From assembly GCA_036925085.1 (NCBI GenBank), contig JAUPFP010000003.1:10083008-10147007 (forward strand): DNA of 64,000 bases. Direction: 5' to 3'. Source of the stretch: Brachycybe producta. Its lineage: Eukaryota; Arthropoda; Diplopoda; Playtdesmida; Andrognathidae. Positions 15,259 to 37,941 of this stretch are shown piece after piece. Under the pieces are notes generated by a model. That model did not search any database. It was not told the DNA's origin and saw only the letters and a list, made by a program, of their open reading frames with translations. The first letter of the stretch is position 1; each line of letters opens with the position of its first letter. The translations under genes and the position numbers were made by a program.

Positions 15259-15263
15259 TGCTG

Positions 15264-15987: not shown

Positions 15988-17034
15988 ATTGAGACACTAT
16001 CTCAATATATTGACTTAGGTTTGGTCAGTTTAGGTGATGTTAGGTTAGGTATACAAATACCTAACAATTACAACTACAATTAGTACTCTGCTAGCAGCCA
16101 AATAAGCCTGTAGCAGAGTTACATAAAAGTCTATATGCAGCATTAAGCATTGTCAAGCACAGTTACATGCACATATATAAAAACAAAATGAATTTACAAA
16201 TGTCAATCCCACAAAACAAAATTATCCACATTCACCACTGCCTCAGGAAGAGAGTTCCATTGTCTTATAACTCTAGGGAAAAAGACCAATAACATGAATC
16301 TGTCCTAGCAAAAATCTCCCTATTTTTCTTAGAGTGGTCAGCCCTGCCCATATATAGTGCTTTATGAATATCACTGGACTGTGGTTTAGGACAATCACCA
16401 CATGTAATTTTTCCAAACAATTTCAAACTTAACTCAGCCCTGCAATGTGCCAAACTATGCCATTATAGCACTGACAGCATCTCAGTGACACTGTCTGTAT
16501 ATTTGTGCCTGCCACAAGCAAACCTAGCTGCCTTTTGCTGAACCATTTCAACTGAGTGAGTGAGTGTGACAGAGTGTGGATTCCATACACTGCAGCATTA
16601 CTCAAGATGAGGCCAAACCAATGCTTGATAGGCAAGTTTTAACTTGTGCTGGGCAGGTGCCCAGTGTCCTTTGACTAAAACAAAGCATTTGTAGAGCTTT
16701 CCCAGTAACACCATTAATGTATTTTTCCAAGAAAAGTCATCTGTCATTGTAACCCCCAAGTTCTTATAACACTTGACACTCCGAAGAATAGTGTCATTCA
16801 TACTATATGTGAACACAATTTGTTTTTCTACTCTGAGTTAGCCTCATAACTACACTTCCTCTCATTCAACTGAAGTTGCCATGTATTACACCATCCTTCA
16901 ATTGCCTTCAAGTCTAGAGCTAATGTTTCACAGTCTTGGATACCATCAACCTCTTTGTAAATTAGAGTATCATCAGCAATCTAACCAAACCAAGCCTAAC
17001 CTAAAGTCAATATATTGAGATACTATCTCAATAT
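15988..17034. mobile_element. Inverted-repeat-bounded element holding an RT fragment, copy A
   Basis: The left end (TATTGAGACACTATCTCAAT at about 15987, then ATATTGACTTAGG) and the right end (CCTAAAGTCAATATATTGAG, then ATACTATCTCAATATATTG) are inverted repeats of about 40 bp. Each end is itself close to palindromic. Between them lies a 5'-truncated non-LTR RT fragment on the minus strand. The likely history is a small palindromic MITE that received a LINE insertion. Confidence 0.55.
16190..16985 (-). pseudogene. 5'-truncated non-LTR RT fragment, copy A
   Basis: On the minus strand the fragment starts at the catalytic ADD motif (IADDTLIYKEV) and continues through QLQLNERKCS, YKNLGVTMTDDFSWK, LAYQALVWPHLE and LILSNAAVYGI with several frameshifts. 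This is the palm/thumb end of a jockey/CR1-type reverse transcriptase. It ends with an AT-rich 3' tail near 16050-16190. It is related to, but different from, the intact-order LINE at 28963-32940. Confidence 0.82.
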
Positions 17035-17224
17035 ATTGACTGCATGCAAAAAATGCCAAATTAATTTTATTTCATTAATTTTAATTTAATTTTGTTAATT
17101 TTCTGCAACTTCCTGGGGCTTCGATAAAGAACGTGTCATCGACAGTTTCTATTGGTGATCAATAGATTGCACTGCTAACGCAAATCTGCAATCACTTTCT
17201 TATATAAAACGATAAGATGGCAAT

Positions 17225-18546
17225 GTGCATGCTCACTGCAAATACCACTGGGCTAATGCTAGTTTAAATTTAACTATGATTTTTACTCAGAAAGTTTACT
17301 TAATATATACTTGTGGAAGGCCAAGGGTGTCTATTTCCAGAGAACAAATACAGTTCTTACATAATGAAGGATATACTGCCAGAAAGATGGCAAAGCATTT
17401 TAATTGTTCAGTTATTGTTGTGTACAAACGTGCCTCTGAAGAAGGAATTAAATTTAGGGACAAATATGCAACAATGACTGAGGAAGAACTTACAAGTACA
17501 ATGATAGAGTTGCATGAGCAGTTTCCAAATGCTGGTTGTAAGGTATTTTATACATTTTTTTATTTTATTTTATGACATGCATTTTTGGACACAATACATG
17601 TTTATTTTAAAATAAAATAATGTGGATTATGACTGACAGCTTATGCTTGGCCACTTATGACACAAAGGCAATTGACCCTGTTGGAACTTTGAATAGAAAA
17701 GGACAAACAGTTCAATGACGCAGTTATTCTGTACCTGCACCGAACAGCCTTTGGCATATTGATGTCCATCTTAAACTTGCAAGGTTGTGTTTAATTCTAA
17801 TGGTAAATGAAATTAATGTCATGAACATCTTTCTATTATTTATTTAAAATGCACTCTGTCTATGACTGCAGATACTGTGTTTTTTTTATTTGTGAACTCT
17901 GTGAAAAAATTTGGTTTGCCATCTAGGGTATGAAAATTTGCATGTAGCCATTTTTATGAATCTTCTTCGTGGTTTACATCATGGAAGCCATATTACAGAA
18001 TCCTCTGTGCACAATGAATGCATAGAAAGGCTATGGAGAGATGTGTTTCTTCAAGCTATACATCAATTTTATGAAGAATTCTATAAACTTGAAGACAATG
18101 GCCTTTTGGATCCAGAAAATAATATGCATCGGTTTGCTCTACAAACAGTTTGCTTACCAATTATAAACAAGCAGCTAGAATTATTTTTAGCAGGATGGAA
18201 TAATCATCAGATGCGAACGGAAAACAACAGGACTCCACGGCAAATTTGGATTGATGGAATGGTTTCCAACTGTAACTCAAACCATACAAGTGTTACAGAA
18301 GTTTTTAGCAATGTTGAAAGTTTTGAAGAAAAAATGCATGAATATCTTACTGCAAATGGTATTAGTAGAGAATTGATTGAAGAGGCATCTGTATATAATG
18401 AAAGAAACATTTCAGCATATACAGCAAGGGTTGATTTGAGTGAAGCCCAGCACAGATTGATTCAAGCTGCAATACAAAATGTTGACAGTAGAAAAAAAAA
18501 TGTTTCTTGTTGTAATCAGTTAATTTCATTTGGTTTTTCAACATAA
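17225..18546 (+). pseudogene. rve/DDE integrase-type transposase gene, copy A
   Basis: Transposase-like gene with an exon-intron layout. The first ORF (17225-17575) holds a helix-turn-helix segment (FLHNEGYTARKMAKHFNCSV) and ends at GCK before a GTATTT donor. About 17670-17790 contains PNSLWHIDVHLK, which carries the first catalytic Asp, with stops in frame. The 3' ORF (17911-18546) contains HITESSVHNECIERLWRDVF, where the Glu of IERLWRD is the third catalytic residue, followed by FLAGWNNHQMRTENNRTPRQ. The usual segment with the second Asp is missing just before GYENLHVA (about 17925), pointing to a small deletion. A TATATAAAA word at 17200 may be its TATA box. Known family: metazoan integrase-core transposons (perhaps IS3EU-like). 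Probably inactive. Confidence 0.8.
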
Positions 18547-18567
18547 TTGCTATTGAACTTTTAAGTT

Positions 18568-18575
<8 letters not shown>

Positions 18576-18641
<66 letters not shown>
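18576..18641. repeat. (TA)33 microsatellite, unit A
   Basis: 66-nt TA tract between the integrase stop and the HECT tail. The unit B counterpart (27303-27340) has only 19 repeats. Confidence 0.98.
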
Positions 18642-18643
<2 letters not shown>

Positions 18644-18923
18644 GTGTTTTATTATATTTTCATGAACACTTACAAATAAACTTGGTCACATTGCATTATA
18701 ATGGATTACAAACAAGTTGGTGGGATGTCAGTATTTAGGAGTACATATGAGACAAAAGTTACGAAAACACATTACAGTCAACAATAACTTTATGGTATAA
18801 CCGCCACTGTGCTCTAATATAAAATAAATGAAGCTCAACCTGGTGAACTGGCTTAAATCTACTTACACCAGTAAATGCACACTAGGCTTTTATAAAGATG
18901 TATATTTGAAACAGTGTTCAGAA

Positions 18924-19021
18924 TTTAAACATGACTGAAATTCAAAATGAAACTCTTAATGTTTCATATGCTCGTGAAAGTTCTAATGTATTGGAGCATG
19001 TGTGAAAAATTGGGCATCTTG
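18924..19021 (-). pseudogene. Truncated HECT C-terminal tail at the duplication junction
   Basis: The minus strand encodes RCPIFHTCSNTLELSRAYET, the HECT C-lobe end including the catalytic Cys. It is cut by the tandem junction at 19021. The rest of the gene exists only after unit B. Confidence 0.8.
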
Positions 19022-20102
19022 AAGTGCAACATTAGTTTGAGACAAACACACAGCAAAAACGCCAGAAAATGGAGATTTTGAAAACAAAACAAACCTCAAA
19101 CAACTGTCAGCAGTACTCAAGACAAAACCACAACAAGTCCTATGTAAACTACGCAACTTCTGTTGTTGTTTTGTTGTTTTATGCCATATGGTTGTCATAT
19201 ACTTAAAAAAATTCAATCTCACGCTAAGCTTTATATGAAGCTTAGCGTGGGATTTAAATTTTTTAACCGTATATACGCCCTGCACTGCAATCGTACGTTT
19301 GTTGTGAGCATGCATAGACTCGTGGTGTGGATGTACAGGTCGAATTGCGCATGCATAACAAGCAAGCTGATGACAATCTGTTATTTTTTTTGGAAGTATG
19401 TACGGTACGAGCTCGACGCTCGTATATATTATGTAGTTAATAAATGTTACGTACAAGGACGACTTATGCGGTTAATTCGTTCCGAAAATTTCTTCTTAAG
19501 TGGAATGCGCTTAAGTACTATGTATTTTTATTACATTTGCCGAGTCGATTGGTGGCGTTGCAAGCGTAAAGGTGCCTTTACACCGAGGAACTGGAAAAAA
19601 TATTGTTAGTTGCAAAAATGTTATTAGCAAATATGTTAATCAACAATTTGTTTCACTGTTTTGATAAATGTTAGCAACAAAATGCTAATAAATATTTTTG
19701 ACAAAAATATTTATAGCATGTCATGAACAATTTGAAAGAAACTATCTTGGATATGATATGAAATACCACATCGGCGGGGCTCCATTGAAATGCTTGTTAT
19801 CAAAATATTCCGATTTGTTTTGTTTCTTTTTGGATCCGATATTGTGTGCGTCAACCCTTATAAGACTTGTCCCCCCCCCCCCCTTCCTACATGAAGCAGG
19901 AGGGGTTGAAGATATAATCTGATAAGAGAGAAAAATGAAGCAAAGGTTATAATTAAAAAAATTTGTTATTATTTTTAAAACTGTCACCAAACAGATACAT
20001 GTATTTTTAATGCGATATTTGTGAAAATACTTGCAATAGGTTATCTCATAATGTGTCTCTATCGCTATAATTTTAAAGATTTCATTCACTTTTATTCACA
20101 CA

Positions 20103-20745
20103 GGATTTACCAGAAATTTGGGGGAATGACTTTAAATATTTAGGATCGGTCCTAGAGAATGATGGTGACGTGACATACAGTAGATTTAGATATTAGTCAT
20201 ATTACAAATGGAACGAATTAAGTTGGCTAAAGTGGAGACAGGCTTGTGGGGTATTATGTGACAGGAGGATGATAATAAAACTAAAGGGCAAGTTTTATAG
20301 AACAGTGGTTATACCAGCTATGCTATATGGGTCAGAATGTTGGGCAGCCAAAAAGAATCAAGAGGATAGACTGAAGGTGGCTGAAATGCGAATTCTAAGG
20401 TTTATGTGTAGGGTAACAAGAAAGGATAGGATCTGAAATAACTTTATCAGAGGGAGTGTAGGGGTAGCACAAGCATAGTAGAAAAGATGCAGGAAAATAG
20501 GCTGAGGTGGTTTGGGCATGTAACTAGGAGTTAGGAGGATGAGCGGCTTAAACAGGTGATGAATTTGGACTTGGGAGGTAAAAGGGGGTAGAGGAAGGCC
20601 CAAACAAGCTTAGAATATGGTGGTAAAATGAGAAAATGGGGACGTGTATGGTCTCTAGGAGCACAAAATTGAAAGGAGTGGAGCGATAGAACCCATAAGG
20701 CCGACCTTGCATACAGTGACGAAAGGTGCAGGAAATGATGATGAT
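20103..20745 (+). pseudogene. RTE-like LINE 3' fragment, copy B
   Basis: Same broken RT fragment as at 11378-12020, carried in unit B at an offset of 8725 with the same disruptions visible in the translations. Confidence 0.82.
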
Positions 20746-21319
20746 ATCTTACACCATTATTCTCTGGGACTGGCAACTCGGAAAATTCATTGCTTGGAGG
20801 TTGCAGTGAGTCGGTGACAGCACCAGCAGCGCCAATATAGCAGGAAAAAGTTTTACTAGCATTTAGTACAAAATGGACATTGGTTCATCAGTTAAACATC
20901 CATCGCCATTCAACACACTACAACAAGCATGTCAAACGCTATGGCTAACACGGGCCAAATAAACACGGTCTAAGTTTATGTGGGCCGCAAAAAAACAAAA
21001 ACTTCAATTTTTATAGAAACGTAGGTTTATTTCGAAAAGTACAGTATAAAAAAGAACAAGGACAATAGATTTTTACTATAGAAATGTAATAACGGCAGCA
21101 AAAATTGAGAATTATAATATATTTCAAAGGTGAGAAAAAGTAGTTTAAAAATTAAGCCAAGCAATTTTTCTTAATGTTTTTGTTCTATGGGCCGCGAGTT
21201 TGACATGCTTGCACTACAAGTTGCCAGTTCCCGAGTGTAATGGTCTAAGATGTAATTATGAGTAACGATATTAGTCACCCATATAAGTGGACTTAATATA
21301 TTAAAGCCATGGCGATTAA

Positions 21320-21818
21320 AGAGACATTACCTCCAGAAATGTCTTGTCAAAATATTGTCAAGAATTATTCAACGATTACCAAAACGATTTTTAAAATTTA
21401 AAATAAGTCATTAACATAATTTAAAAAATTAAAAATCAGTTGACTTCGTGTAAATGAACTTTATCAGATAGATGCGCCACTAAACAACAGACATTGGCAA
21501 CAAACAGACCCCCCCCCCCCCCCGAAAGTATACTCCTCTACTTGAATTCTGATTTGTTGTCAAAGTACTATGGATGTAATATTTGAATTATTCCACATGG
21601 AAGGTTGTATGGAGTTGAATATGAATAGGAAATATATGTAATTTCATTAAGAAATTCTGGAAATGTGAGGGGACACCTTTGCCACAAAAATGGGGTCGTT
21701 TAAAAGTCATTTCATTTTTATGGTTTTAATGACTTATTTTAAATTTTAAAAAGCGTTTTGGCAATCTTTGGGCGAGTCTTGACAATATTTTGAAAAGATT
21801 TCTGGAGGTAATGGTCTT
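21320..21818. mobile_element. TTAA-flanked MITE, copy in unit B
   Basis: Duplicate of the element at 12595-13091. The only difference I found is a C-tract of 15 instead of 13 bases (21509-21523). Confidence 0.75.
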
Positions 21819-22008
21819 TTAAAGCCATTATTTTTGAAAAATAATTTGTGACTAATTAATTATAGTTGTCAATCAAAATTTTAGTCATTGTTACATTTTA
21901 GTCTGATTGTGTGCTGTTACTCTTTTCAAGAGACGACTTTAAAAGAATGATCTGACACTTTTATCTCGAATAAATTTCATTTATTTTTGATTATTTTTTT
22001 ATAAACAG

Positions 22009-22062
22009 GCAAAAGAAAAAACCTCACAACTTCAACTCAAAAAGGACAAAAAGCAAAGTTAA
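22009..22062 (+). CDS. UCHL5: Duplicated UCHL5 terminal exon, copy B
   Basis: Same 17-codon tail plus stop and same acceptor as at 13282-13335, offset by 8727 bp. It lies downstream of the first complete terminal exon, so it is probably an orphan exon or an alternative 3' end. If the tandem duplication is an assembly artefact, this copy is not real. Confidence 0.6.
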   Translation, partial: AKEKTSQLQLKKDKKQS

Positions 22063-23240
22063 GGTGTATTTTTGAAAATTAAAAAAATCATGTTTTGAAT
22101 AATCTCATGATGCGGTTTTCTTATTTGTGTGTGTTTTTGCTCGTGTAAACATATGTAAGGATTCAAATTTAATTCCACCGTTTCTTCAATTTCTGTCTAT
22201 CTGTGATCGCTTTAGAGGTGCACTGTGTCGCCACAAAGTAGCACCACATAGTGGTTGACGCGGCTTGCTTCACATGGACCACGATTAAAAACAATAGAAT
22301 GTTTTCAGTGTATTCGACTGGTACGACCTTCATCGTCACCAGTGATAAATAGACGGCGTTCGACACTTGTGACAGTACTCGAACACTCGTCAGTGTGGTA
22401 CAAAAACCGGTGGCGATCATCATACCCTTTAGGGTAGATTCACACTATAAACTGTATACAGTCAAGGTGGTGTCTGGTTGATTGTTGTCAAGTATCGTAC
22501 TGTATATTCTCAATTGAAATCTAATGTATTTAGAAATTTGGCATTCACACTGACGACCACACACACATTTTGGTTTTCCATAGACAAATGACTAGTGACC
22601 ATGATGACCGGACCGTGTTATGACCCATATGCAAACAATAGTCTGCTAAAAAGGAAACAAACCCCCAACGACATATTGACATCCATAATAAATTTATAAA
22701 GGTAAAACAACTCTTATATTGGAAAAACGCCAAAAGTGAATGAAGAATCGTCTGCTTTTTAAAACTAGAAGGAAGACATCTAGCTTAAGGTGGCTGAATA
22801 GATATTTACATGTATTTTGCTTTGTTCCTCTGATGGCCCCAATACATTTCCTAATGCTATGCTCCATAGACGTTTTTGTCAAATGTGGATGCAAAAACAT
22901 CAAGCAAACGTTTTTTTTAAACATTATGAAAAAAATTCAAATTGTTTTAAAAAATAAACATTTTCAAGCAGTTTGGAAATGACCTGATTTTTAGGTTTTT
23001 TCATTGACATATCATATAAAACTATTTTCGCCTTTTTCAAGATATAATGAAAAAAACTTTTAACATGATCACCAACTATTCTAGTTTTTAAAACACTGAA
23101 TTTTTTCGTAATGTTTCTCCTGAAAAACACTCGCTTGAAAAATATAAAATTTTCTCAAAACCATGGGTGGGGCAAGCAGGGATGAGTAAATGTCACAAAA
23201 GTAATGTCTTATACGTTGACGTATAGTACGTGACGTATTA

Positions 23241-23985
23241 TCTTATATATAAAACAAAGTCGATATTTCTTTTCAGATCAAAGGCTTTTTAATGGTGAGG
23301 GCTAGCGTCATGAAATTTGCACAGGTTATTCTTTCCGGAATTTGCAAGTTAATGCAACTATTTTCAGCTCGCTACGTCATTCCCTTCCCGAGTTTTACAC
23401 GTGGTGCACGTCTTCATATATAGGCAATAAGGATGGGACCTTGCAAGCTAAATATCGATATTGACATCGAAGAGGTCACTATCGGTGGTTCAATATCCAA
23501 TATCCACATCCAAATATCGATATTTCGATACTATCGATGGTTATCCCTAATAGGCAAACCGTTTTATTTTAAAAAGATTAGAAACCTGAAACAGGGAAAA
23601 TAGTTTCGACACCTTAAGATAGGCAGTGCACCTGTGCGGAATTCCATATCAACACATAAATAATGTATTTTTGAACCTGTATTTGAACCATGTATTTAGG
23701 AACCTGCAGAAGTGTATATAAAGCTGTGAAAGCGGCACAGTTTTTTGTCACAGTTGCCGTGTCTTCAACAAAGCTGCAGAATTTTTGTACTTGACTATGA
23801 AAGGGGTGCGGATTTTTTTCACAGTTGCCGTGTCTTCAACAAAGCTGTGGAATTTTTTTGGTTGGCTGTGAAAGGGGTGCGGTTTTTTGTCACAGTTGCC
23901 ATGTTTTAGCACCAATGTTTTTCATCTTTTTCAGAGAAATTAATCTGAGAGTTTAAAACCCTGGCGAAGCCGGGTACAAAGCTAG
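23241..23985 (+). mobile_element. Non-autonomous Helitron, copy B
   Basis: Duplicate of 14514-15258 within unit B, with the same TC start, 3' hairpin and CTAG|T end. Confidence 0.88.
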
Positions 23986-24714
23986 TGCTGTGTGACGGAT
24001 CAGGGTGTTTGAATATGGCGCTCAAATGATGTCACAAAAAGAGCGGGAAAAGTCCCGTTTATGCCTGTGATGTTTGTTGAAGAATCAAGTAAACAAAGAG
24101 GCTAAAGGTTGAATAAACGAATTGTTTATTCAACAAACAAATGATTATAATAAAATATGTTTCTGTCTATTGGGAGTATAACAAAAATACAAAGAATGAA
24201 CGATGATGATTAATAATTCGATAATTAGTAAGAAAGGCGGTTCCTCAATAAGTATTTTCGGCAATTCCTAAAGCACTCCCGTTGCAGACAGCTTTCATAG
24301 AGCGTATGCACTAGAGTAGATTTGACTTGAGAAGAACCACGAGATTTGAATTCGGCGCTTTTTATAATCGCGGGTTTGGCAACGCCCCCTCCTAGGGGGA
24401 CGCGTCCAATCCCGAGGCTTCTCGGAATTCTCACACGGCCCTCCCAACCACCCTCTACCAGCGCAGGCGTAGAAGAGAGAAGAAGAAAGAGGGAGACAAG
24501 CTTTATTTTTAAGAAAAAAAGGAAAAGGAAGATAAAAAGCTAACAGAATGATATCAATTTTTTTAATATCCGAATAAAATGAAAATCCCCCAAAACGAAA
24601 AAAACAATGACAATGGGTTTACAAGGACAAATTCGACCCTAACCCCAGCCAAGGGACACAAATATTGCCCTGTGAATTTTGCTCCCATCATTTATGACGG
24701 GTTACCCCACTAGT

Positions 24715-25761
24715 ATTGAGACACTATCTCAATATATTGACTTAGGTTTGGTCAGTTTAGGTGATGTTAGGTTAGGTATACAAATACCTAACAATTACAA
24801 CTACAATTAGTACTCTGCTAGCAGCCAAATAAGCCTGTAGCAGAGTTACATAAAAGTCTATATGCAGCATTAAGCATTGTCAAGCACAGTTACATGCACA
24901 TATATAAAAACAAAATGAATTTACAAATGTCAATCCCACAAAACAAAATTATCCACATTCACCACTGCCTCAGGAAGAGAGTTCCATTGTCTTATAACTC
25001 TAGGGAAAAAGACCAATAACATGAATCTGTCCTAGCAAAAATCTCCCTATTTTTCTTAGAGTGGTCAGCCCTGCCCATATATAGTGCTTTATGAATATCA
25101 CTGGACTGTGGTTTAGGACAATCACCACATGTAATTTTTCCAAACAATTTCAAACTTAACTCAGCCCTGCAATGTGCCAAACTATGCCATTATAGCACTG
25201 ACAGCATCTCAGTGACACTGTCTGTATATTTGTGCCTGCCACAAGCAAACCTAGCTGCCTTTTGCTGAACCATTTCAACTGAGTGAGTGAGTGTGACAGA
25301 GTGTGGATTCCATACACTGCAGCATTACTCAAGATGAGGCCAAACCAATGCTTGATAGGCAAGTTTTAACTTGTGCTGGGCAGGTGCCCAGTGTCCTTTG
25401 ACTAAAACAAAGCATTTGTAGAGCTTTCCCAGTAACACCATTAATGTATTTTTCCAAGAAAAGTCATCTGTCATTGTAACCCCCAAGTTCTTATAACACT
25501 TGACACTCCGAAGAATAGTGTCATTCATACTATATGTGAACACAATTTGTTTTTCTACTCTGAGTTAGCCTCATAACTACACTTCCTCTCATTCAACTGA
25601 AGTTGCCATGTATTACACCATCCTTCAATTGCCTTCAAGTCTAGAGCTAATGTTTCACAGTCTTGGATACCATCAACCTCTTTGTAAATTAGAGTATCAT
25701 CAGCAATCTAACCAAACCAAGCCTAACCTAAAGTCAATATATTGAGATACTATCTCAATAT
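24715..25761 (-). pseudogene. Inverted-repeat-bounded RT fragment, copy B
   Basis: Duplicate of 15988-17034 with the same palindromic ends and the same frameshifted minus-strand RT fragment (24917-25712). Confidence 0.82.
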
Positions 25762-25951
25762 ATTGACTGCATGCAAAAAATGCCAAATTAATTTTATTTC
25801 ATTAATTTTAATTTAATTTTGTTAATTTTCTGCAACTTCCTGGGGCTTCGATAAAGAACGTGTCATCGACAGTTTCTATTGGTGATCAATAGATTGCACT
25901 GCTAACGCAAATCTGCAATCACTTTCTTATATAAAACGATAAGATGGCAAT

Positions 25952-27273
25952 GTGCATGCTCACTGCAAATACCACTGGGCTAATGCTAGTTTAAATTTAA
26001 CTATGATTTTTACTCAGAAAGTTTACTTAATATATACTTGTGGAAGGCCAAGGGTGTCTATTTCCAGAGAACAAATACAGTTCTTACATAATGAAGGATA
26101 TACTGCCAGAAAGATGGCAAAGCATTTTAATTGTTCAGTTATTGTTGTGTACAAACGTGCCTCTGAAGAAGGAATTAAATTTAGGGACAAATATGCAACA
26201 ATGACTGAGGAAGAACTTACAAGTACAATGATAGAGTTGCATGAGCAGTTTCCAAATGCTGGTTGTAAGGTATTTTATACATTTTTTTATTTTATTTTAT
26301 GACATGCATTTTTGGACACAATACATGTTTATTTTAAAATAAAATAATGTGGATTATGACTGACAGCTTATGCTTGGCCACTTATGACACAAAGGCAATT
26401 GACCCTGTTGGAACTTTGAATAGAAAAGGACAAACAGTTCAATGACGCAGTTATTCTGTACCTGCACCGAACAGCCTTTGGCATATTGATGTCCATCTTA
26501 AACTTGCAAGGTTGTGTTTAATTCTAATGGTAAATGAAATTAATGTCATGAACATCTTTCTATTATTTATTTAAAATGCACTCTGTCTATGACTGCAGAT
26601 ACTGTGTTTTTTTTATTTGTGAACTCTGTGAAAAAATTTGGTTTGCCATCTAGGGTATGAAAATTTGCATGTAGCCATTTTTATGAATCTTCTTCGTGGT
26701 TTACATCATGGAAGCCATATTACAGAATCCTCTGTGCACAATGAATGCATAGAAAGGCTATGGAGAGATGTGTTTCTTCAAGCTATACATCAATTTTATG
26801 AAGAATTCTATAAACTTGAAGACAATGGCCTTTTGGATCCAGAAAATAATATGCATCGGTTTGCTCTACAAACAGTTTGCTTACCAATTATAAACAAGCA
26901 GCTAGAATTATTTTTAGCAGGATGGAATAATCATCAGATGCGAACGGAAAACAACAGGACTCCACGGCAAATTTGGATTGATGGAATGGTTTCCAACTGT
27001 AACTCAAACCATACAAGTGTTACAGAAGTTTTTAGCAATGTTGAAAGTTTTGAAGAAAAAATGCATGAATATCTTACTGCAAATGGTATTAGTAGAGAAT
27101 TGATTGAAGAGGCATCTGTATATAATGAAAGAAACATTTCAGCATATACAGCAAGGGTTGATTTGAGTGAAGCCCAGCACAGATTGATTCAAGCTGCAAT
27201 ACAAAATGTTGACAGTAGAAAAAAAAATGTTTCTTGTTGTAATCAGTTAATTTCATTTGGTTTTTCAACATAA
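25952..27273 (+). pseudogene. rve/DDE integrase-type transposase gene, copy B
   Basis: Same gene as at 17225-18546, with identical ORF translations and the same missing second-Asp segment. In this unit it is followed, after a (TA)19 tract, by the convergent full HECT gene, so this copy preserves the original two-gene transposon order. Confidence 0.8.
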
Positions 27274-27294
27274 TTGCTATTGAACTTTTAAGTT

Positions 27295-27302
<8 letters not shown>

Positions 27303-27340
<38 letters not shown>
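27303..27340. repeat. (TA)19 microsatellite, unit B
   Basis: 38-nt TA tract corresponding to 18576-18641. It is one of the few length differences found between the two duplication units. Confidence 0.98.
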
Positions 27341-27342
<2 letters not shown>

Positions 27343-27626
27343 GTGTTTTATTATATTTTCATGAACACTTACAAATAAACTTGGTCACATTGCATTATAA
27401 TGGATTACAAACAAGTTGGTGGGATGTCAGTATTTAGGAGTACATATGAGACAAAAGTTACGAAAACACATTACAGTCAACAATAACTTTATGGTATAAC
27501 CGCCACTGTGCTCTAATATAAAATAAATGAAGCTCAACCTGGTGAACTGGCTTAAATCTACTTACACCAGTAAATGCACACTAGGCTTTTATAAAGATGT
27601 ATATTTGAAACAGTGTTCAGAATTTA

Positions 27627-28660
27627 AACATGACTGAAATTCAAAATGAAACTCTTAATGTTTCATATGCTCGTGAAAGTTCTAATGTATTGGAGCATGT
27701 GTGAAAAATTGGGCATCTTGAAATTCCAATTACATTTATGAATGCGACCTTTATACTATCTTTTGGCATTTGCATTGCACCAGTTACAAAAAATAAAAAA
27801 TTTAGTAACATTTTATTTGATAAAGATAAAATGTATTCATGGTGAAAGTATAAAACTTTTTCTTCATCATTACTGACATGATCTTCACATGTTCTTATAC
27901 ATTCAACAACTTTCTGTGTAGTTGGTTTTTGTTGATTTATCATGAATGTAATATGATGAAGACTTAGCTTCCTAAATAATTTATTTTCATGTGCAGTTGG
28001 GATGCCTTGATGCATCAATTGATGCAGTCCATATGGTTTTCTAACAAGATATTCTTCTGAAATTGTCAATATTTGGTCATGCAAATCATTTTTTCAAGGG
28101 ATGTCGTATAATCCATGAACTGTAAAAAAAGTTGCTAATCTTTCTTTTTCCCAGTTATTTAAATGGTCAAAATCAGACATGGCTTTTTTAAGAATACGTT
28201 TTTCAGTCATAGTGACAAACATCAAAAATTTTCTAAGTAAAGCTTCTTTTTCTAAGGGTTCATTTGAGGATATAGCCATGTAGGTTGCTACTGATATTTC
28301 AACTGGTAATGCATGGGTTACAACAATAGTATGAGAAAGAATTCTTCCTAAAACTACAAATACCTCAGCCTCTTTACTCATTCGGTGCCATGGTAAGTAT
28401 GGGACCTTTACATTTTCACCAGTGAAGAATTTTCAATCGCCTTGTGCCAAACTGTTGTAAACATTTCTTTTGTTAAACCGCCGAGATCTTCACCTTCTTC
28501 ATTTACAAATTTCACGATGGGTGTTTTCAAAACAATAGTTGCATTTTTATAAACTTCAATGAGACCTTCCAGTACAATTTCCTGATCAATAATGATGATA
28601 ATTTTTTCTTCTGACACTTGGACAGAAAGCAAAGCTGTAAAGATAAATGTGATTGATCAT
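27627..28660 (-). pseudogene. HECT-domain ubiquitin-ligase-like gene of a transposon
   Basis: Reading the minus strand from 28660 down, three consecutive ORFs (28632-28408, 28381-28094, 28084-27641) cover a HECT domain in order. The N-lobe has IVKFVNEEGEDLGGLTKEMF. The middle has VLGRILSHTIVVTHALPVEI. The C-lobe has FLFFVTGAMQMP and HTCSNTLELSRAYE with the catalytic Cys. Two frame breaks (about 28400 and 28090) separate them, so it is probably dead unless the breaks are sequencing errors. The closest style I recall is the G2E3-like HECT proteins that are repetitive in fish and invertebrate genomes. It converges on the integrase gene (25952-27273). Confidence 0.82.
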
Positions 28661-28814
28661 AAAACTGTTTTCTGTGTCCTTACATTTTACTGTAAAATTC
28701 ACACATAACAAGGTTTTGTATAAAACACAAATGTTTCAAACAAGTCTAGATTCATCATTATTGCATGCATTAAAGTAAAAAAGTCTTATTTAGCAAATTA
28801 TAAAAAATGCCTGT

Positions 28815-28900
28815 TTTTATGTCTTCATTAATTTTCTCATTTCTTATGTCTACCACTATATCAGCTGTTATGTCTTGTGTTATATCTTCTATATCAGAGT
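28815..28900 (-). CDS. Probable upstream exon of the HECT gene
   Basis: After a TTGCAG acceptor (minus strand, 28906-28901) there is an open acidic stretch reading SDIEDITQDITADIVVDIRN. It lies about 150 bp upstream of the HECT start in the same orientation, with the spacing of an exon. The 3' splice boundary is uncertain. Further upstream exons may have been separated by the LINE inserted at 28963. Confidence 0.4.
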
Positions 28901-29058
28901 CTGCAATTTAAAAATTTACTAAAGTAACATAATATTGTGAATGTTTTGTACAGCTTACCATTATTCAATTCAATTCAATTCAATTAAATACACCTGCAAT
29001 CAGCTCGAAAGCCATGTGGCAGGGGGGATTGCTCACAATCACGACTGATTGTCATTAT

Positions 29059-31708
29059 TTAAAAATAAGAATCATCATGAAATTGAAATTGTCCTAACAA
29101 AGAACTATTCACAGGAAGAGAATTCCATAGTCTAATAACATTAGGAAGAAAAGACCAAAAATATGCATCAGTCCTAGCCATTAATTCTTTCAAAGTCTTT
29201 GAATGCCCAAATCTACCTTTACGAGGATTTCTAGTTAGTAAACCATTAAGCAGAGTAATGTTTTCACAAGACAGCAAACGCCCCAAAAGAGCGAGGCTTT
29301 GCTCATTTTTTTGGCCTGCTAATGATTCCCATTCTAGCTCTTGGAGCATAGACGATACGCTGTCAGTATACGCATACCGACCCTTTACTAATCTGGTAGC
29401 CCTTCGCTGCACCATTTCTATTTCTTGTTTTATTTTATTTCTAAATGGGCTCCAAATTGGGGAACAATATTCTAAGATAGGTCTAACAAGGGTAAAGTAA
29501 CAGACCTTCTTTACATTTTCTTTACAATGTTTAAGGATGCGTTGGACAAACCGCAGCCTCTGATTAGCTTTGGCAACTGCTTTGGTTATATGATCTTTCC
29601 AAAGCATGTCCTTGGACAAGGTTAAGCCAAGATATTTGATGGTATCAACATGGCTTAGCTGAACATCTTCCATTGTGTAATCTGCCATGCAAGATTCTCG
29701 CTTTCGGGAAACTCGCATAACATTGCATTTACTCCTATTCAGTTGTAAATGCCACTCAGAGCACCACTCTTCAACACTGTCTAGATCTCTTTGGAGGACT
29801 TCACTATCCTCATTATTCCTAATCTTCCTTTAAACAACAGCATCATCTGTAAACAAACGCATTGTACTGTTGCATGTCTGACAGATTGTTTATGAACAGA
29901 AGGAAAAGCAGTGGTCCAAGAATGCTACCCTGAAGTACACCAGATGTTACTTTAGCCCAGTCAGACACAGCACCATCAATTTGGACTCGCTGTTGTCTAT
30001 TTGATAAGAATGATGATGTCCACGAAATTACTTGTTTATTTAAGTTAAAAGTCATCATTCTTTTAATTAGTAATGAATGCTTCACTGTATCAAATGCTTT
30101 TGCAAAATCTAAAAATACCAAGTCAAATTCACCCTTACTATCCATGCCAGATTGTATGTCTTGGATGAATAGTGCTAGCTGGGTATCACATGATCTGCCT
30201 TTACGAAAACCATGCTGGTTTTCATGAATTAATGGTTTTTTAAATGCTTGATTGTATTAGAATAAATTATATGCTCGAGAGTCTTACAAACAATGGAGGT
30301 CAGAGAAATGGGTCTATAGTTCTTTGGACAATTTTTATCTCCTGTTTTAAAAATTGGGCAGATATTTGCTTGCCTCCATGCCATAGGCAGTGTACCACTA
30401 TCAAGGAAATCTTGGAAAAGTTTACTTAAAAAAGGGCTAACTTCTGTGGCTAGCTCTTTTAGCAATCTTGGTGAGATTTCATCTGGACCAGCTGATTTAT
30501 TAACATCTAGATTACAAAGCAAATTTTGTAATCCAGTGGAGTTTATGATTATATCAGGCATGACATGAGATAAGGTGCCAAGTTGAGGTTCCTTGTTGCC
30601 ATCATTAGCATGAAAGACACTTTGAAAATAATTGTTAAGTGTGCTTGCAATAACCTGTTTGTCAGTACAGACATCACCAAGTGGTGTTATAATTGAAGTT
30701 ATATTATTTTCAATTTTGTTGAGATTTTTTACATATTTCCAGAACAACTTGGGATTTTTATGGAGTGATGCCCCTATGACATTATTAGTAAAGTTTAAGT
30801 GTTCTTTTTTAAGCAAACATTTCACAAGACATCGCTGGGACTTAAACTGTAATTTAATAGTATCATTCATGTTAATCTTCATTTTAGATCTAAATTTGCA
30901 TTGTTTACGAAGAGTGCGGCGTATCTCAGTGGTGTACCAAATTGGTTCCAAGCTTGATTTTATATTTTTGAATGGGATGAATTTATTTATGCCATTAGAA
31001 ATGACACTGACAAACAGTGACCATTGTTGGTTTACATCTTTTGATAGTCCACTTTTATTTGTTACAAAGAGCTTAAAATTAGCCCAATCAGCTTTATTGT
31101 ACTATGGGACTTTTCAGGGAGCTGATTGGAGTTTTTCGAATTGGGTGGCAAATTCTAAGTAAATAAATCATTTTGTGATCGCTTATGCCATCAGCAATTT
31201 CAATTGATTTGGCATTTTCTAGGGTGTTCGTAAAAACTAAATCTAAAATATTAGCTGTTGTATTGGTGCAGCGTGTAGGGGTTTGCACTAGTTGATCCAG
31301 GGAATATGTGCATACACTATCAAGCAGTATATTTATTAATTTTTTACTAGAGCACTGGGAGTCAACAGAATAATTTTTCCAATTTATTTCTGGAAGGTTA
31401 AAATCCCCACCAATGAGAACTGATGCATGTTTGTGGGTAGAAAATAAGGAATCAAAACATTTTCTAAATTGGAGTAATTCCTCCTCGTCACTTGAAGGTG
31501 GGCGATAGAATGAAAATAAGAAAATTTTTCTCCCATTATGAAGTGAAATGCTACAACAAACTGCCTCACAATCACCTTCATAAAGGGGTTCTCTTTTTGA
31601 TATAAGGTTTTTATTGATAACAAGAAATACACCTCCACCTTTGATTAAGTTCTGATCTTTTCGGAATATGTTAAACTGTTGGGGGGAAAACTTCTGCGGA
31701 AGAAACAT
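29059..31708 (-). pseudogene. LINE ORF2: APE endonuclease and reverse transcriptase
   Basis: Pieces in order: 31708-31094 endonuclease (LIGGDFNLPEINW, ILDLVFTN and the final SDH); 30951-30229 RT N-terminal part (KSAGPDEISPRLLKE, NYRPISLTS); 30145-29843 palm (FDLVFLDFAKAFDTV, GVLQGSILGPLLFLLFINNL). The catalytic LFTDD motif at about 29828-29860 is in another frame. 29718-29059 is the thumb (IKYLGLTLSKD, FTLVRPILEYCSPIWSP). Breaks lie near 31090, 30190, 29860 and 29820. Confidence 0.88.
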
Positions 31709-31967
31709 CTTCAGTTAGCCATGATTCACTACCTAAGATAATGTCGGGATTGTAGCTTTCTATAGCTTCTCTAAACTGAATTTTTTATACTTCTGCAATT
31801 GATTATTAACATTTTTAAAGATTTATTTATAAGCTTGTTTTCTTTTTTGGTCAGAGGAACTGTCTTAGAAGAAATTTTGTTGTTAGAAAGTTGGGTTTCT
31901 TTTTGAATAACTATTTTAGGTACAGTAACTAGATTTGATTTCTTCCTAGAATCAGGGCATTTAGAGA

Positions 31968-32922
31968 TTAGAAGTTTCCCTGGACTTGACTACAAACAGA
32001 TTTCCAGAGAACAGAGCTCAAGACATCCTTACCAGCTGCAGTCAAGTGAAAGCCATCACACAGATAATACTTATCAAGTGCTTTAAGAAGCTCCCGAGAA
32101 GCATCTGCAAATGAATAACCAGCACTACGACAGAGAAGAGAGACCTCTTGTGAAATCTGCTGGACTGCAGGGTTCGGAAGAAAAGAACCCTTAGCATCAC
32201 GCTCAAACCGTGGCAAGACAGTAGAAATCACAATCCTTGCACAAGGCCTGATGCGTTTTACCTCTCTAGAAAAGTGCTTAAGTCTCTCAGCTATCCCCTT
32301 TGGTGCATTCATCTTGAGATTATTAGTGCCGGCATGCACAACTACAACAGGGTTAAGGCTAGCTTTGTTCAGCACTGCCTTAACTCAAGTAGTTAAATGT
32401 TCAACACGTGTGCCTGGATAGCACCACGTTGTTGACTTCCCAGTTTTGCCGACCCTAACACCTCGAACGATACTGTCATCAATGAGGTGCACATCGATAG
32501 GCTTACCAGTTTGCGGGCTATAATTAGTGGATGTTGAGGCAGGAATATCCTTAACCTCAGACAGCAAACCAAATCGGTTACCACCCATGATAGCCAAACT
32601 ACCATTAGCCACGACACTGGCAAAGCTTTTTCTTTGTGGCTGAGATCCTTTGCCTTTGACCACCATCCATCCATCTCCTGTCTGGGCTACCTGATTCTTA
32701 ACTACCAAGTCAGTCCCTACAGATACATTGGATGAAATGCCAGGCACAACATCACTCGTCTGGCAATGCAATCTTGTGAGTCACTGTAGGGTGAGCATTG
32801 CAATGCCGAAGGAGCAATTCTTTCAACTCAGCAACCTCCTTCCGCAAACAGGCGATATCACGTGATGCCTGCAATGAACGAGTAGAAGGAGCACCAGGTG
32901 GGGTCAAAGTCTTAAGAGGCAT
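31968..32922 (-). pseudogene. LINE ORF1 with SGNH-esterase domain
   Basis: The ATG at 32922 opens a short segment with a coiled-coil-like helix (ACLRKEVAELKELLL), then a frame shift near 32765. The following ORF carries the esterase: block I reads LIDDSIVRG (the usual GDS Gly is Asp), block III is HAGTNN and block V is CDGFHL with Asp and His. An in-frame TGA at 32385 splits the domain. SGNH/GDSL esterase in ORF1 is known for CR1, L2 and Rex1 LINEs and is thought to help membrane or RNP interactions. Confidence 0.8.
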
Positions 32923-32940
32923 ATTTAAAATGATAATAAA

Positions 32941-34128
32941 GTAAGAATAAGCCTAATAATTTTAGAGAAGAAAAAAGCGTGGACGTTAAGTGTTTTTTTA
33001 ACTTTTTGGGCCTAAAGTGGCGTTTTGATTTGAAAATACGATATATCTGCTTTCACCAGAGTGTTAGGCACGCTGAGATCTACAATATTCTATAAGGAAA
33101 TCAAGTTTGGATAAAGAATTACTTGCGTTTTGAGTAAAAAACGTGCACAAACAAAGGAAACAAAGAAACAGAAGACAAAGGAAGTAGCGTCCTAAACTAA
33201 AATTGCTCTAACTCAGAAAATACTTATCCAAATTGGAATCCGATTTCACCACTGTATTCAGGAGTCTCTAATAACCCTCTAATGACAAGTTTAAATTAGT
33301 AAAATAGCCGAAATATCGGGAGACGAAAAAAAAAGTGCTTCCCCAGTAACTTGTGTAACTACTTTAGTGATTGATGTGGATCATCACTTGTTTCATTCTG
33401 AATAGAAAATAAATGGCAAATCACATAAACATTATAGCTACTGCCAAACTGAGATTAGAAAAGTTATAAAAACATGTTCACTATAGCAGCAAGTGGTAGA
33501 AATAAACATTATTCAACTTATAAAACTTTTTGGGACTACATCAAGTTTTTAGGTTAACTGTTTCTTATAAAAGTGGTTAGGTTTTTCATTTTTTTCCAAA
33601 ACCACTCATCTTTTGTAAGTTTTTGGTTTTCTTTATTAAACATTTTATTTTTCTTAGATATAGGTTGCTGTAGTGTGCACAAATAATATATACGTGGTCA
33701 AAAATATAGCAGCCAGAGGAAATACTGTAGCAGCAGCAACTATAAGCTCTAGAGCTTGCAGCTGCAACAGACCATACACCAGAACTCTACAACTGGCCTT
33801 ATAATAGCAGCTGCTATTTCCTCTGCACTGCTATTTTTGAACACATAAATATACAAACCTGCTGTTCCTGTAATACTGCAGATACTGATGGCTCCCTTGC
33901 TGTATGTGGTAACTGTGAACTAAACATTAGGTTTTTGTATAAACAAATTCAAGTTCAATGTAATGAATTGATAATAATTCAATAGACCTGTGTTTCTTGT
34001 ATTTGTATTCCAGTGTGCATTTCTGAAAATTGCAATGTACTTTCATGACTTTCAATCTATAACACAGGCCTTTAAATAAATACTTTATTTTTTTTTCCCC
34101 CACAATATTAGCTGTTTCTTATGTTTTT
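32941..34128. other. No gene recognised
   Basis: AT-rich. 33690-33830 contains an imperfect inverted pair (AGCAGC..., 'aaatagcagccagaggaaat' and 'tttcctctgcactgctattt') with the shape of a small MITE. Confidence 0.45.
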
Positions 34129-34233
34129 CAGTACGCTGAGTTCGAAAATGCTGAGCATTTCCCTCTTATCACGTTTTTCCGCAAAGTGGGTATGAAAGTT
34201 TATGAGAAACACACAGAACAGATAGAAGTGTAG
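34129..34233 (+). CDS. Possible terminal exon, unidentified
   Basis: After a TGTTTTTCAG acceptor an open frame reads FENAEHFPLITFFRKVGMKV and ends IEV before TAG. Codon use looks coding and the acceptor is good, but no upstream partner exon was found. It could be the 3' end of a transposon gene or a chance ORF. Confidence 0.3.
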   Translation, partial: QYAEFENAEHFPLITFFRKVGMKVYEKHTEQIEV

Positions 34234-34328
34234 TAACACTTTAATTCAAAAACATATAAGATCAAGGTGAAATTACATTGTATTTAACAGATGTTGTTTG
34301 TACATTTATATTGTACAATCAAAGATCT

Positions 34329-35568
34329 TTATAATACCGAATTTTCTTGCCCTTGTTTCGAACTTTTTCTCTTGTGTACTGCACCTGTCTCTTCCCTGTG
34401 CAGCATCCAGCAGTAGTCTGCAATCATGTTCACATCCCATCGTCCTTGATACCTCTGCTCCATTTTCTTGATGTCCTGATGAAACCTCTCTCCTTGCTCT
34501 TCACTCACAGCACCAAGATTTTTTGGAAAATAGTCCAGATGTGAGTTTAAAAAGTGGAGCTTCAAGCTCATTGAGCAGCCCAAGGCTTGGAGGTTCTTCA
34601 ACATGTTTTCTACGATCAAGGATCATAGAAAGCACTTTGAGATCGCCGCAGATGGTCCATTTGTATTCGTTGTAGTTAAGCTTGTCCAAGATCAAAGCCA
34701 AGTTGTTGTATTTCTCCTTCAAATGAACTGAGTGTCCAACTGGAATAGAAGCATAAATGTTGCCATTGTGAAGAAGAACAGCTTTCAGGCTTTTCTTGGA
34801 CGAGTCAATGAAGAGTCTCCAATCATCCGCCTCATGCTGAATTTTAAACATTGCCATCAAACCGGGAACATCTGAGCAGTAAACAAGTTCACCATCCTGA
34901 GTAAAGTAAGGCTGGAAGGCTTTCTCTCGGTTTCGATACCAAGAGAATGAGGTCCCAGCTGCCAACAAGTTCTTCTCCTGTAGTCTGGAGCCAAGCAACT
35001 CAGCAGAATCCTTAGGAAGGCCCAGATCTCGGATCAAATCATTTAATTCTGGTTGTGAAAACAGTTGGGGTCCTCTGGTGTCGTCCACTTGAAACTCATC
35101 AGCAGAACTTTCCTCCAACTCACTCCCTGCTGGTGAAGGCACATAGTCTAGCCTTTCTGGAGGCAAAGGTATTGGAATGCCTGGTCCATAAGGCACAGGT
35201 CATAGTGTAGATTCAGGGTTGGGGTAGGAAATCACTTTTCTGTTTTTTAAACTGTAGCCTTGTATGTTGCATGTGCAAAAGTAGCAATCATCGCTGTGGT
35301 TTCGGGGCTCCCTCCAAATCAAAGGCACTCCAAAACGAAACGACTTCACCTTGCCCTTCAACATGCGGAGTCCTTCGAAGCAACTTGAACAGACTCCATC
35401 AGGGGCCCATGAGTTGTCCTGGTCTCCAATCTTAACACCAAAATATGCAAAATACACTTTCTTGACAAAGTCCGTGATGTTACGCTGTTGTTTTTTCACT
35501 ACAATTTCTCCACAAATGTAGCAAAAGCTATCAGGAGAATTGACACAACCTCTTGAAGCCATGGTCAC
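34329..35568 (-). pseudogene. Repetitive transposon-like gene family, internally deleted
   Basis: From the ATG at 35568: an N-terminal Cys-rich module (FCYICGEIV, VCSSCFEGL, HSDDCYFCTC) looks zinc-binding. It is followed by a frame with an in-frame TGA at 35200 and the segments LFIDSSKKSLKAVLLHNGN and YNEYKWTICGDLKVL. Near 34625 the sequence jumps directly to the C-terminal part (SLKLHFLNSHLDYFPKNLGA, SEEQGERFHQDI, ADYCWMLHRE) in another frame. In recalled relatives roughly 150 residues lie between these segments, so this copy has an internal deletion. The family is multicopy in cnidarian and arthropod genomes and has no assigned function. Confidence 0.72.
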
Positions 35569-35599
35569 ATTTAGTTATGCAATCTAAAATAAATTCCAT

Positions 35600-37131
35600 T
35601 AGCATCAAAACTGTACATGATGGATTGCTTTTAGTATTTTTCCTGAACTAAGCATTAAAAGTTACATAAGAAACACCCTTTATTGCAAAGAAAAAAATTT
35701 CATTGCAGACCTGTGTAATAGTCACAAATAGAAATAATTACAGTGAATTTTACATTTGTACAGTTATGAATGTTTAAATTTTATGTAACCTGTGTTTCTA
35801 AACTTGGTGAAGTTGAAATATCTGGATATGGTAGTCGCAGATCAATGTTTGGAATTAATATCAAGATTCCTTTCTGAATAATTGACTGAAGATGGTCAAT
35901 TGAATTTGGTTGAAATGTGGACACATGCTTTGACTTATCACATTTCCCATAAGAAAATCGAAGGTACAGCCCACACAAGAATTGCCTCAATTCTTCCAAT
36001 GACCACGATCTTTGAATGTCTACTTTTCATGTCTACTTTTCTTTGTAATATATTATATTTACATGTTCTTGGTTACATGGTACTCTGAGTATTATTATAA
36101 TTACTATCATATTTTTAAGAAATCACACTTTATATATTAAAAATATTGACAATTTGGAATTTAAAATAAGGTAGATAATATCGAATAGCTTTTACATTTA
36201 AACAATGTTTAAAATATGAACACATTTAAGAAATCTGAAGTTTCAAAATATGTGTTTATGTCACTTCTTGACATATTGGAATTTTATTAGTTCATAGATA
36301 AGATGTTTTTCATCAGGATGTATTGGAAATTAGAACATTAAATGAATGTTGTTATAATGAAAAATCATTTAACCTTATATAGGCTGAAATTTAGCTTTTA
36401 AACATATTTCCATATGGCAAAAAAATAGTGAAATGTTTTTATTTATTTAAATTTTTTTATGCTATCATTTTTTATGTATATTTTTAATTTTTTTAAAGAT
36501 AATTCTTATTTTATTTTTCTAATATAATTTTAATTTTTTAATTTTCTAATATTTTAATTTATTATTATATTTTATTTAATTATATAGGCTGAAATTTAGC
36601 TTTTAAACATATTTCCATATGGCAAAAAAATAGTGAAATGTTTTTATTTATTTAAATTTTTTTATGCTATCATTTTTTATGTATATTTTTAATTTTTTTA
36701 AAGATAATTCTTATTTTATTTTTCTAATATAATTTTAATTTTTTAATTTTCTAATATTTTAATTTTTTAATTTTCAAATATTTTAGATTTCTCTATACGA
36801 CGATATTTCTAATTTTTTAATTACTTTGAACTTTTCTATTTTTTTAGTATTATTAACAAAATTTAATACTTAAGACATATAATAAGTATGTTTGTACAGC
36901 ATAGTTATACACACCCATTCCATTGTTTTGCAAAAAAGTACATTCTGCTGATGATGGGAAGAAATCTGTGTTATTTCTCCTCAAAAGAAATACTAAAGCT
37001 TTAAACGTTTTTTGCCGTTTGCGGCCCTTTCGTCTTACTTGGCCTTTTCAAATTAATTAAAATATTTCATATTAATTGACTAACTTTACACCATTTCACT
37101 ACATAGAAAATCCATGCAGTGCACATGTATA
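35600..37131. repeat. AT-rich region with a 205-bp tandem duplication
   Basis: The segment starting TATAGGCTGAAATTTAGCTT at about 36377 recurs at about 36582 (period 205 bp, nearly identical through about 36750). No coding signal. Short ORFs at 35781-36088 have no recognisable domain. Confidence 0.7.
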
Positions 37132-37246
37132 TTAAAGAGATCATTTCCTTCAGAAATTTCTTGTCAAAATATTGTCAAGAGGTACTCAATGATTACCAAG
37201 ACGATTTTTAAAATTTAAAATAAGTCATTAATATAATATAAAAAAT

Positions 37247-37941
37247 TGTAACACCCTGTAAATCGTGATCCCGCCAAAACCATAGCCCGGGGGGTAAACA
37301 ACTCTCAACCGTCCCTCCCTCTTCTCTGACTCACCTTTCTGACTCATGCCCAAGCAGCGGATTGATACATAAAGGACCATGGTCACTTGGACCTGGTTAC
37401 ACCTCGCAGGTGTACACAGGTCCAAGGTATAAAAGGACCGTGTTCCTCTTTGTTCTTCAGTTCTTTCCTTTGCCTGTATTACGAGATATTATTCCGAATC
37501 ATGGGCATGAGGATTCACCGTTAGTATTATTAATATTCATCCTTGTATTCTGTGTTTCTTACAAGTGATGAATAAAAGTGTTGTAACAAGAAACAGCGTT
37601 GTCTTTCTGTCTATATGTAACTAACTTCTCTTCAGAGGCCGGAGGCTCCATAGGGCAGGAGCTATACGATTCTCAGCAGCTACAACATCTTCTCTTGTCG
37701 GTATACCGATGGAGAAGATGTATATCAGCATCAACCGGAAGAGAGAGAGATGGCCGCCACTCTCCTGCATCGATTTCACCCCCATTCAGAAGAGTGACTA
37801 CAATCTAGACGTCTCCATCCAGCTCTCTCTACAGCTCGGATCTTCTCTGTGCAGGTACCATACTGTTCAGAGAAGAAACGAAGTGTGGAAAATGTCATCT
37901 AAAGGTTGGTAATAAATATTGGTTGATGTCAAAAGCTCACA
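37247..37941 (+). mobile_element. Solo LTR, 695 bp, with 4-bp target duplication AAAT
   Basis: TGTAACACCC...AAAGCTCACA, flanked by AAAT at 37243-37246 and 37942-37945. The host MITE sequence resumes exactly after the right copy (TAAAATTCAGTTGACTTCC, as at 12710). It has an internal GGTATAAAAGGACC TATA box (37427-37440) and an AATAAA at 37570. A related, truncated copy begins with the same TGTAACACCC at 57675. It also shares TG(TAAC) ends and 4-bp duplications with the LTR at 8915. Confidence 0.82.

Follow-up and report, generated by a model that had tools for sequence, protein, structure and literature searches.

We analyzed a 64,000-nt stretch of the genome of the millipede Brachycybe producta (GenBank assembly GCA_036925085.1, contig JAUPFP010000003.1, positions 10,083,008 to 10,147,007; hereafter the window), in which a gene for an integrase-like transposase (Pfam rva_4) on the + strand (25943-27273) and a gene for a HECT ubiquitin ligase (E3) on the - strand (27641-28656) lie tail to tail, both broken. 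A first-pass annotation, made from the letters alone, had read the two as parts of one transposon, and its description of the locus was borne out: a + strand integrase core with helix-turn-helix (HTH), WHID, and HNECIERLWRDV motifs (the HTH match falling slightly below its cut-off), a - strand HECT domain with a presumed catalytic Cys in HTCSNTLEL, and a gap put at about 350 bp that we measured as 367 bp. The pieces are listed below (ORF, open reading frame; loci are named by contig, i.e., C1, C3, and so on, and position).

26008-28965, + strand: degraded transposon core (integrase and convergent HECT), delimited by homology to two sister loci
25943-26302, + strand: ORF, integrase N-terminal part with HTH; HTH_7, E 1.4e-4, 22.3 bits (cut-off 23.8)
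26446-26571, + strand: integrase piece with the first catalytic Asp, WHID at 26479-26490; recognized from its translation and the genome-wide Pfam rva_4 match C3:10109459-10110022
26632-27273, + strand: ORF, C-terminal half of the integrase core, its presumed catalytic Glu in HNECIERLWRDV; Pfam PF24764 (rva_4, 'Integrase core domain'), E 7.1e-45
27641-28093, - strand: ORF, HECT C-terminal part, presumed catalytic Cys (FHTCSNTLEL) at codon 27695-27697; Pfam HECT PF00632, E 6.9e-8, 32.9 bits (cut-off 23.9)
28094-28432, - strand: HECT middle part, upstream of an in-frame TGA; genome-wide Pfam HECT match reading through the stop (window 27659-28366, E 1.8e-5)
28408-28656, - strand: start of the HECT N-lobe with GEDLGGLTKEMF, in another frame; joined pieces compared with the HECT stretch at C1:6.57 Mb

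The two upstream HECT pieces (28094-28432 and 28408-28656) gave no Pfam match when scanned individually; we assigned them to the HECT gene because of the read-through Pfam match and because the joined window pieces aligned over 282 aa with the HECT stretch at C1:6.57 Mb at 49% identity. The Thr-Cys motif of the C-lobe is what we take to be the catalytic site. Folding the window HECT piece as a single sequence gave an unusable model (predicted local distance difference score, pLDDT, 39). On the integrase side, the frame is interrupted and the stretch expected to hold the second catalytic Asp is missing. With broken frames in both genes and this stretch gone, the window copy is dead.

Family A carries both genes between one pair of ends

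Direct evidence that the integrase and HECT genes moved as one unit comes from the element family that we term A, of which the 295.3-Mb genome (442 contigs) holds four copies, on C13 (7,137 bp), C7 (7,120 bp), C11 (6,936 bp), and C45 (6,975 bp). All four run from TACGGAGCCC to GGGCTCCGTA (TACGG...CCGTA) with both genes in between, have the start TACGGAGCCCTGTAAAGG and the end CCTTTACAGGGCTCCGTA in common, and are flanked by perfect 6-bp target site duplications (TSDs; i.e., CTCTCC, GTTAAG, GGGTTG, and CATTTG). Because shared ends and a TSD enclose both genes in four places, the genes moved together, which supports the first-pass proposal of a mobile element carrying its own E3 ligase gene. The same annotation had asked whether the two genes recur as a convergent pair enclosed by common terminal repeats and target duplications: this held for family A (4/4 copies). 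The window copy has no recognizable ends of its own. The C13 and C7 copies were 99.8% identical over the 6.5 kb compared, C11 and C45 having been compared only at their ends and proteins; such high identity suggests that family A moved recently. At the two ends of the element lie repeat arrays with a period of about 20 bp (self-match spacing), inverted relative to each other.

In the C13 copy, the integrase is an open frame of 402 aa (element positions 1096-2301), and the HECT protein is an open frame of 640 aa convergent to it (3373-5292). Both proteins are open in all four copies and were printed as 100% identical, the integrase scores varying slightly. Catalytic residues were assigned by motif, giving an integrase spacing of D58D40E for family A (a D56D34E spacing was also assigned by motif) and a HECT catalytic Cys at residue 606 of 640. 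Against the Pfam HECT cut-off of 23.9 bits, family A scored 27.0, compared with 32.9 for the window, 44.8 for a second multi-copy HECT type (B; see below), 43.1 for C1:14.1, 31.4 for C12, and 33.7 for C1:12.29.

The termini of family A recur widely. More specifically, the 18-bp terminus TACGGAGCCCTGTAAAGG had 768 exact matches genome-wide (388 forward, 380 reverse), compared with 0 for the backward control, and among the places listed there were at least 17 +/- pairs within about 1.1 kb. Fourteen of these 17 short pairs were fetched (examples L073-L086), the three longest being left out, and perfect 6-bp duplications flanked 7 of the 14. Short pairs bearing such duplications seem to be derivatives mobilized by the family A transposase. 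Outside family A, the relative at C1:14.1 carries TACGGAGCCCTGTTGAGGACA on its integrase side, and its other end was sought and not found; likewise, a search for ends in the C12 / C3:11.29 and window families yielded no clear terminal inverted repeat (TIR).

Convergent pairing across the genome

To count pairs, we merged matches to Pfam rva_4 and to the family A 402-aa integrase into 26 integrase loci, and merged the genome search matches for HECT, host HECT genes included, into 50 HECT loci. A HECT stretch lay within 3 kb of 14 of the 26 integrase loci, and all 14 pairs were convergent. Within 11 kb, 18/26 integrase loci had a HECT neighbor (16 convergent, 2 same-strand, 0 divergent), compared with 0.097 pairs (~0.1) expected by chance if 50 HECT loci were placed uniformly along the 295.3 Mb; the locus copies are not independent, since family A counts 4, the window tandem 2, and C1:10.50/C6:8.25 represent one duplication. 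The genome-wide convergent co-occurrence anticipated by the first-pass annotation was thus found, and not the independent boundaries without co-occurrence that it had set against its proposal. The integrase loci are distributed as follows.

Convergent HECT within 3 kb (14): C3:11.29, C12:2.29, C1:7.52, C3:10.10, C3:10.11, C3:11.06, C55, C13, C7, C11, C45, C1:12.29, C1:14.12, C3:10.54
Convergent HECT at wider spacing (2): C1:17.25 (9.2 kb), C3:10.60 (8.5 kb)
Same-strand HECT, 9.9-10.8 kb away (2, one duplication): C1:10.50, C6:8.25
No HECT (7): C1:18.83, C1:6.17, C1:13.06, C62, C9, C1:16.54, C1:12.81; about 1.5 kb of flank also scanned, no match

At an eighth locus for which the whole-genome search gave no HECT, C3:10.58, a local profile scan returned a weak convergent HECT match (E 7e-4), which we left outside the 16. 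The local HECT and integrase profiles were built from the genome's own pieces, the window included, and match those pieces by construction. Counted from the HECT side, an integrase lay within 11 kb of 17/50 loci; loci of the transposon type with none at that distance include C1:6.57, C1:9.63, C74, and C1:11.77. A DNA search with the window-family HECT found three dispersed loci, and both genes were present at all three.

Convergent order recurs across distant element lineages. Integrase identity between the three main groups of paired loci (A / C1:14.1; C12 / C3:11.29 / C3:11.06; window) was 17-30%, several rows of this comparison being fragments, and at such divergence the integrase-HECT association looks old, as judged from these alignments. 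Integrase and HECT trees of the paired loci agreed in two groups (C12 / C3:11.29 / C3:11.06 and window / C3:10.54). The third behaved differently: the integrases of family A and C1:14.1 are sisters (62% identity, 100/100 support), whereas a tree holding their HECT domains together was rejected (approximately unbiased, AU, test, p 9e-5), the tested group having been chosen after the pairwise identities were known and A being a long branch. The N-terminal parts of the two HECT proteins are nevertheless related (28%, E 3e-11). This discord possibly reflects fast divergence of the family A HECT domain, or a chimera; that lineages exchanged the HECT gene is another candidate explanation, made less certain because A and C1:14.1 share the N-terminal part of the HECT protein and A is a long branch.

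Where the HECT C-terminus could be read (13 loci), the Thr-Cys motif is retained in 11, among them 8 of the 9 paired loci (kept in A, B, C1:14.1, C12, C3:11.29, C3:11.06, C1:12.29, the window, C1:7.52, C1:6.57, and C1:9.63; lost in C3:10.54 and the dead copy C3:11.35; the weak C3:10.58 match was left out). Codon comparisons, whose p values are uncorrected for multiple tests and are all blurred by post-insertion decay, gave the following picture. Between the family A HECT and its dead relative at C3:11.35 Mb, 34 of 92 differences were synonymous, against an expectation of 24.5% (p 0.005, compared with p 0.46 in a frame-shifted control), and for the integrase, family A versus C1:17.25 gave 21/54 (p 0.008). 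The window integrase versus its sisters gave dN/dS-like ratios of 0.48 and 0.61 on 36 and 21 differences. Past codon constraint on a paired HECT is modestly supported.

The B-type HECT protein (677 aa) is present at L059:4490-6520 (C1:10.512 Mb), C6:8.257, C74:240571-242599, and C1:11.772 Mb; it has a KHA-like N-terminus (Pfam E 4e-9) and shows codon constraint (14/25 synonymous versus the C74 copy, p 0.0006; control, p 0.95). A convergent integrase was sought beside the B-type copies and none was found. Two of these copies lie in a 19.5-kb block (L058/L059, C1:10.499-10.519 Mb, and C6:8.243-8.264 Mb) that contains long tandem arrays and is about 99-100% identical between the two contigs in the parts compared. 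We considered whether this block is a large element with a 490-aa integrase and a 677-aa HECT, and rejected it; it was not counted as a pair because its ends lack a TIR or TSD, its two genes share a strand and are separated by 9.9-10.8 kb, and the C74 block with the 677-aa HECT has no integrase match.

Known elements and the proposed role of the HECT gene

Judged by sequence, family A has the hallmarks of the IS3EU (IS3EU/GingerRoot) superfamily of DNA transposons; the window copy can be placed there by gene content, though not by termini. According to PMC10045372, IS3EU elements have TA..TA termini and usually 6-bp target duplications, and encode an integrase-like DDE transposase near IS3/IS481 that lacks the HHCC motif. 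Family A has the corresponding TA..TA ends (TACGG...CCGTA) and 6-bp TSDs, each in 4/4 copies, and integrase-like DDE transposases are likewise encoded (rva_4, E 5e-32 for A and 8e-83 for B); HTH-type matches in the integrase N-terminal regions were weak, all below curated cut-offs. The TET-carrying IS3EU families of seven rust fungi end in TAYGG..CCRTA (PMC12730594), a pattern that the family A ends fit. In fungal TET-carrying elements, the transposase and an alpha-kinase gene face opposite ways, and a TET/JBP gene lies in the middle. As in the elements described here, the transposase is accompanied by another enzyme gene of opposite orientation; the enzymes differ: alpha-kinase and TET/JBP there, a HECT ligase here, where no third gene was recognized. 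HECT and ubiquitin are absent from the main texts of both papers. Plant Kaonashi MULEs (Mutator-like elements), which carry Ulp1-type proteases (PMC6117577 and PMC13317346), similarly combine a DNA transposon with an enzyme domain of the ubiquitin/SUMO world; unlike the present elements, they have an unrelated transposase and a protease rather than a ligase. Among the matches listed in the open PubMed Central literature, none described a DNA transposon, IS3EU or otherwise, with a HECT gene (Repbase and subscription papers lie outside that scope, and a description found only in a database may exist), and the papers containing both 'IS3EU' and 'ubiquitin' were, by their titles and abstract starts, not about transposon genes. 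A second enzyme gene opposite an IS3EU transposase thus has precedent; a HECT ligase in that role did not turn up. Relatives were also sought on viral contigs, with no match.

Three related, eukaryote-like integrase loci (L088-L090) lie on contigs of 3.4-4.2 kb that are recorded under a Cycloclasticus symbiont of a Poecilosclerida sponge (LWTN01, a metagenome-assembled genome); one of these contigs has an open 441-aa integrase frame, and the frames of the other two are cut or interrupted. The contigs appear to be DNA of the host sponge contaminating a bacterial genome record, and their integrases neither support nor refute a general pairing. Multi-copy HECT and G2E3-like proteins of fish and cnidarians have similar features, and may come from genes of the same transposons that were taken for host genes in annotation.

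We favor, with moderate confidence, the reading that the window holds a decayed copy of an IS3EU-type cut-and-paste transposon, that many such elements in this genome carry a convergent pair of an integrase-like transposase and a HECT E3, and that the HECT protein is an accessory enzyme favoring the element. The transposase would bind the TACGG...CCGTA ends and the inverted subterminal repeat arrays, and, as the family and the TSDs suggest, would cut and insert with a 6-bp stagger. The HECT protein is predicted to act in trans as an accessory E3, perhaps removing host repressors: by ubiquitinating a host protein, it would raise expression or transposition of the element, and its gene would be kept for that reason. 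Candidate targets are most simply a chromatin or small-RNA repressor, or else a cell-cycle or repair factor. As an E3 acting in trans would benefit all copies, its persistence requires some advantage at the level of the element. A bolder version, in which the HECT E3 is a core, ancient, and functional component of animal IS3EU elements that disarms host repression, in a role comparable to that of viral E3s, and is the source of many 'repetitive HECT genes' in animal genome annotations, is tentative.

Several results weigh against the favored reading. (i) The pairing is incomplete: 8 of the 26 integrase loci had no HECT by whole-genome search, 2 (one duplication) had a same-strand neighbor, 2 of the 16 convergent pairs are separated by 8.5-9.2 kb, no integrase lies near 33 of the 50 HECT loci (host genes included), and about 1 kb of sequence downstream of the open 441-aa integrase in the sponge-symbiont record, on contigs of 3.4-4.2 kb, contained no HECT. 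(ii) Constraint is uneven: the clearest case for HECT is family B, which is not a convergent pair; the C12 versus C3:11.29 pieces showed no significant constraint for HECT (p 0.21 and 0.16) or integrase (p 0.98 and 0.98); and window HECT pieces versus their sisters gave dN/dS-like ratios of 0.56, 0.63, and 1.13 on 17, 12, and 13 differences. (iii) A search of 177635 PDB sequences (E up to 1) found no relative of the family A HECT, and with that and a Pfam score of only 27 bits, ligase activity is not assured.

The same anatomy would be expected if the target of the HECT protein were the transposase that the element itself encodes, whose activity it would limit or time, rather than host defense. 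Pairing across lineages fits such co-evolution with a cognate partner, as do the trees that agree within two groups, but the sister integrases of A and C1:14.1 with their ungrouped HECT domains are unexpected under tight co-evolution, although the N-terminal parts of these two HECT proteins are related; we regard this alternative as unlikely. We rate as rather improbable the idea that a captured host HECT gene is carried along without benefit in a family that is merely old. Gene capture by DNA transposons is well known (for plants, see the review PMC13317346), the paired copies read outside family A are decayed, and the absence of significant constraint between the C12 and C3:11.29 HECT pieces is what such a passenger would show; yet the HECT frame is open in every family A copy, the Cys motif survives in most readable loci, the family A HECT shows codon constraint, and the same slot and orientation recur across integrase groups as distant as those above. 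That HECT and integrase are two independent repeats lying together by chance or nesting would accommodate the many HECT loci without an integrase and the integrase-free copies of the B-type protein. It is refuted for family A, in which one pair of ends and one TSD enclose both genes in each of the four copies, and the genome-wide count, with every pair within 3 kb convergent, leads us to reject chance adjacency, leaving this explanation a very small probability.

DNA transposons are usually thought to need a transposase only. If the HECT gene has been kept while the transposases diverged to 17-30% identity, it would parallel viral E3s and the kinase and TET genes of fungal transposons. Transposon counter-defense could then be tested via the HECT substrate, and annotators would have reason to treat multi-copy HECT genes with caution, as possible transposon genes. 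Family A, with four copies open in both frames and many short derivatives, offers natural material.

Surroundings of the window copy

The window core was compared by blastn with its sister loci at C1:7.52 Mb (L051) and C55:25 kb, giving 77-95% identity (~90% over the longest stretches). Homology begins near 26008, breaks at 28965, and picks up again at 33366-34062 and 35716-37247. For the window copy, which is truncated and split, we found neither terminal repeats nor a left end or a TSD, and no TIR was found in the two sister loci. The tract is composed as follows.

10299-19023: tandem duplication unit 1, 99.6% identical to 19022-27722, with a second copy of the integrase (17216-18543) and, at 18945-19031, a ~30-aa HECT stub
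19022-27722: tandem duplication unit 2, 99.6% identical to unit 1, ending inside the HECT gene
28966-33365: later insertion of 4.4 kb splitting the element, with flanking homology back at 33366, a TTCAA-repeat edge, and reverse-transcriptase-like ORFs on the - strand
33366-34062: continuation of the tract common to C55 (92%) and C1:7.52 (88% to L051 over the first 180-190 bp)
35716-37247: further tract common to C55 (89-92%), beyond a second insertion; possibly still part of the transposon

The 8.7-kb tandem duplication (10299-27722) is recent, and its junction lies inside the HECT gene, in agreement with the first-pass statement that its Unit A cuts within the HECT. The profiles that located the second integrase copy and the HECT stub were built partly from the window; the stub also came up in another search. 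In the 4.4-kb insertion, the ORFs bear what we take to be a reverse transcriptase motif. HECT N-terminal homology was looked for in 35716-37247 and none was found; C55-like patches extend from this tract to about 38236.

The second insertion in the shared tract, at 34063-35715, contains ORFs at 34504-35199 and 35203-35574 (- strand), the latter resembling a repetitive cysteine-rich animal protein. A short dispersed repeat at 24654-24717 recurs in the fetched loci L059, L065, L006, and L050.

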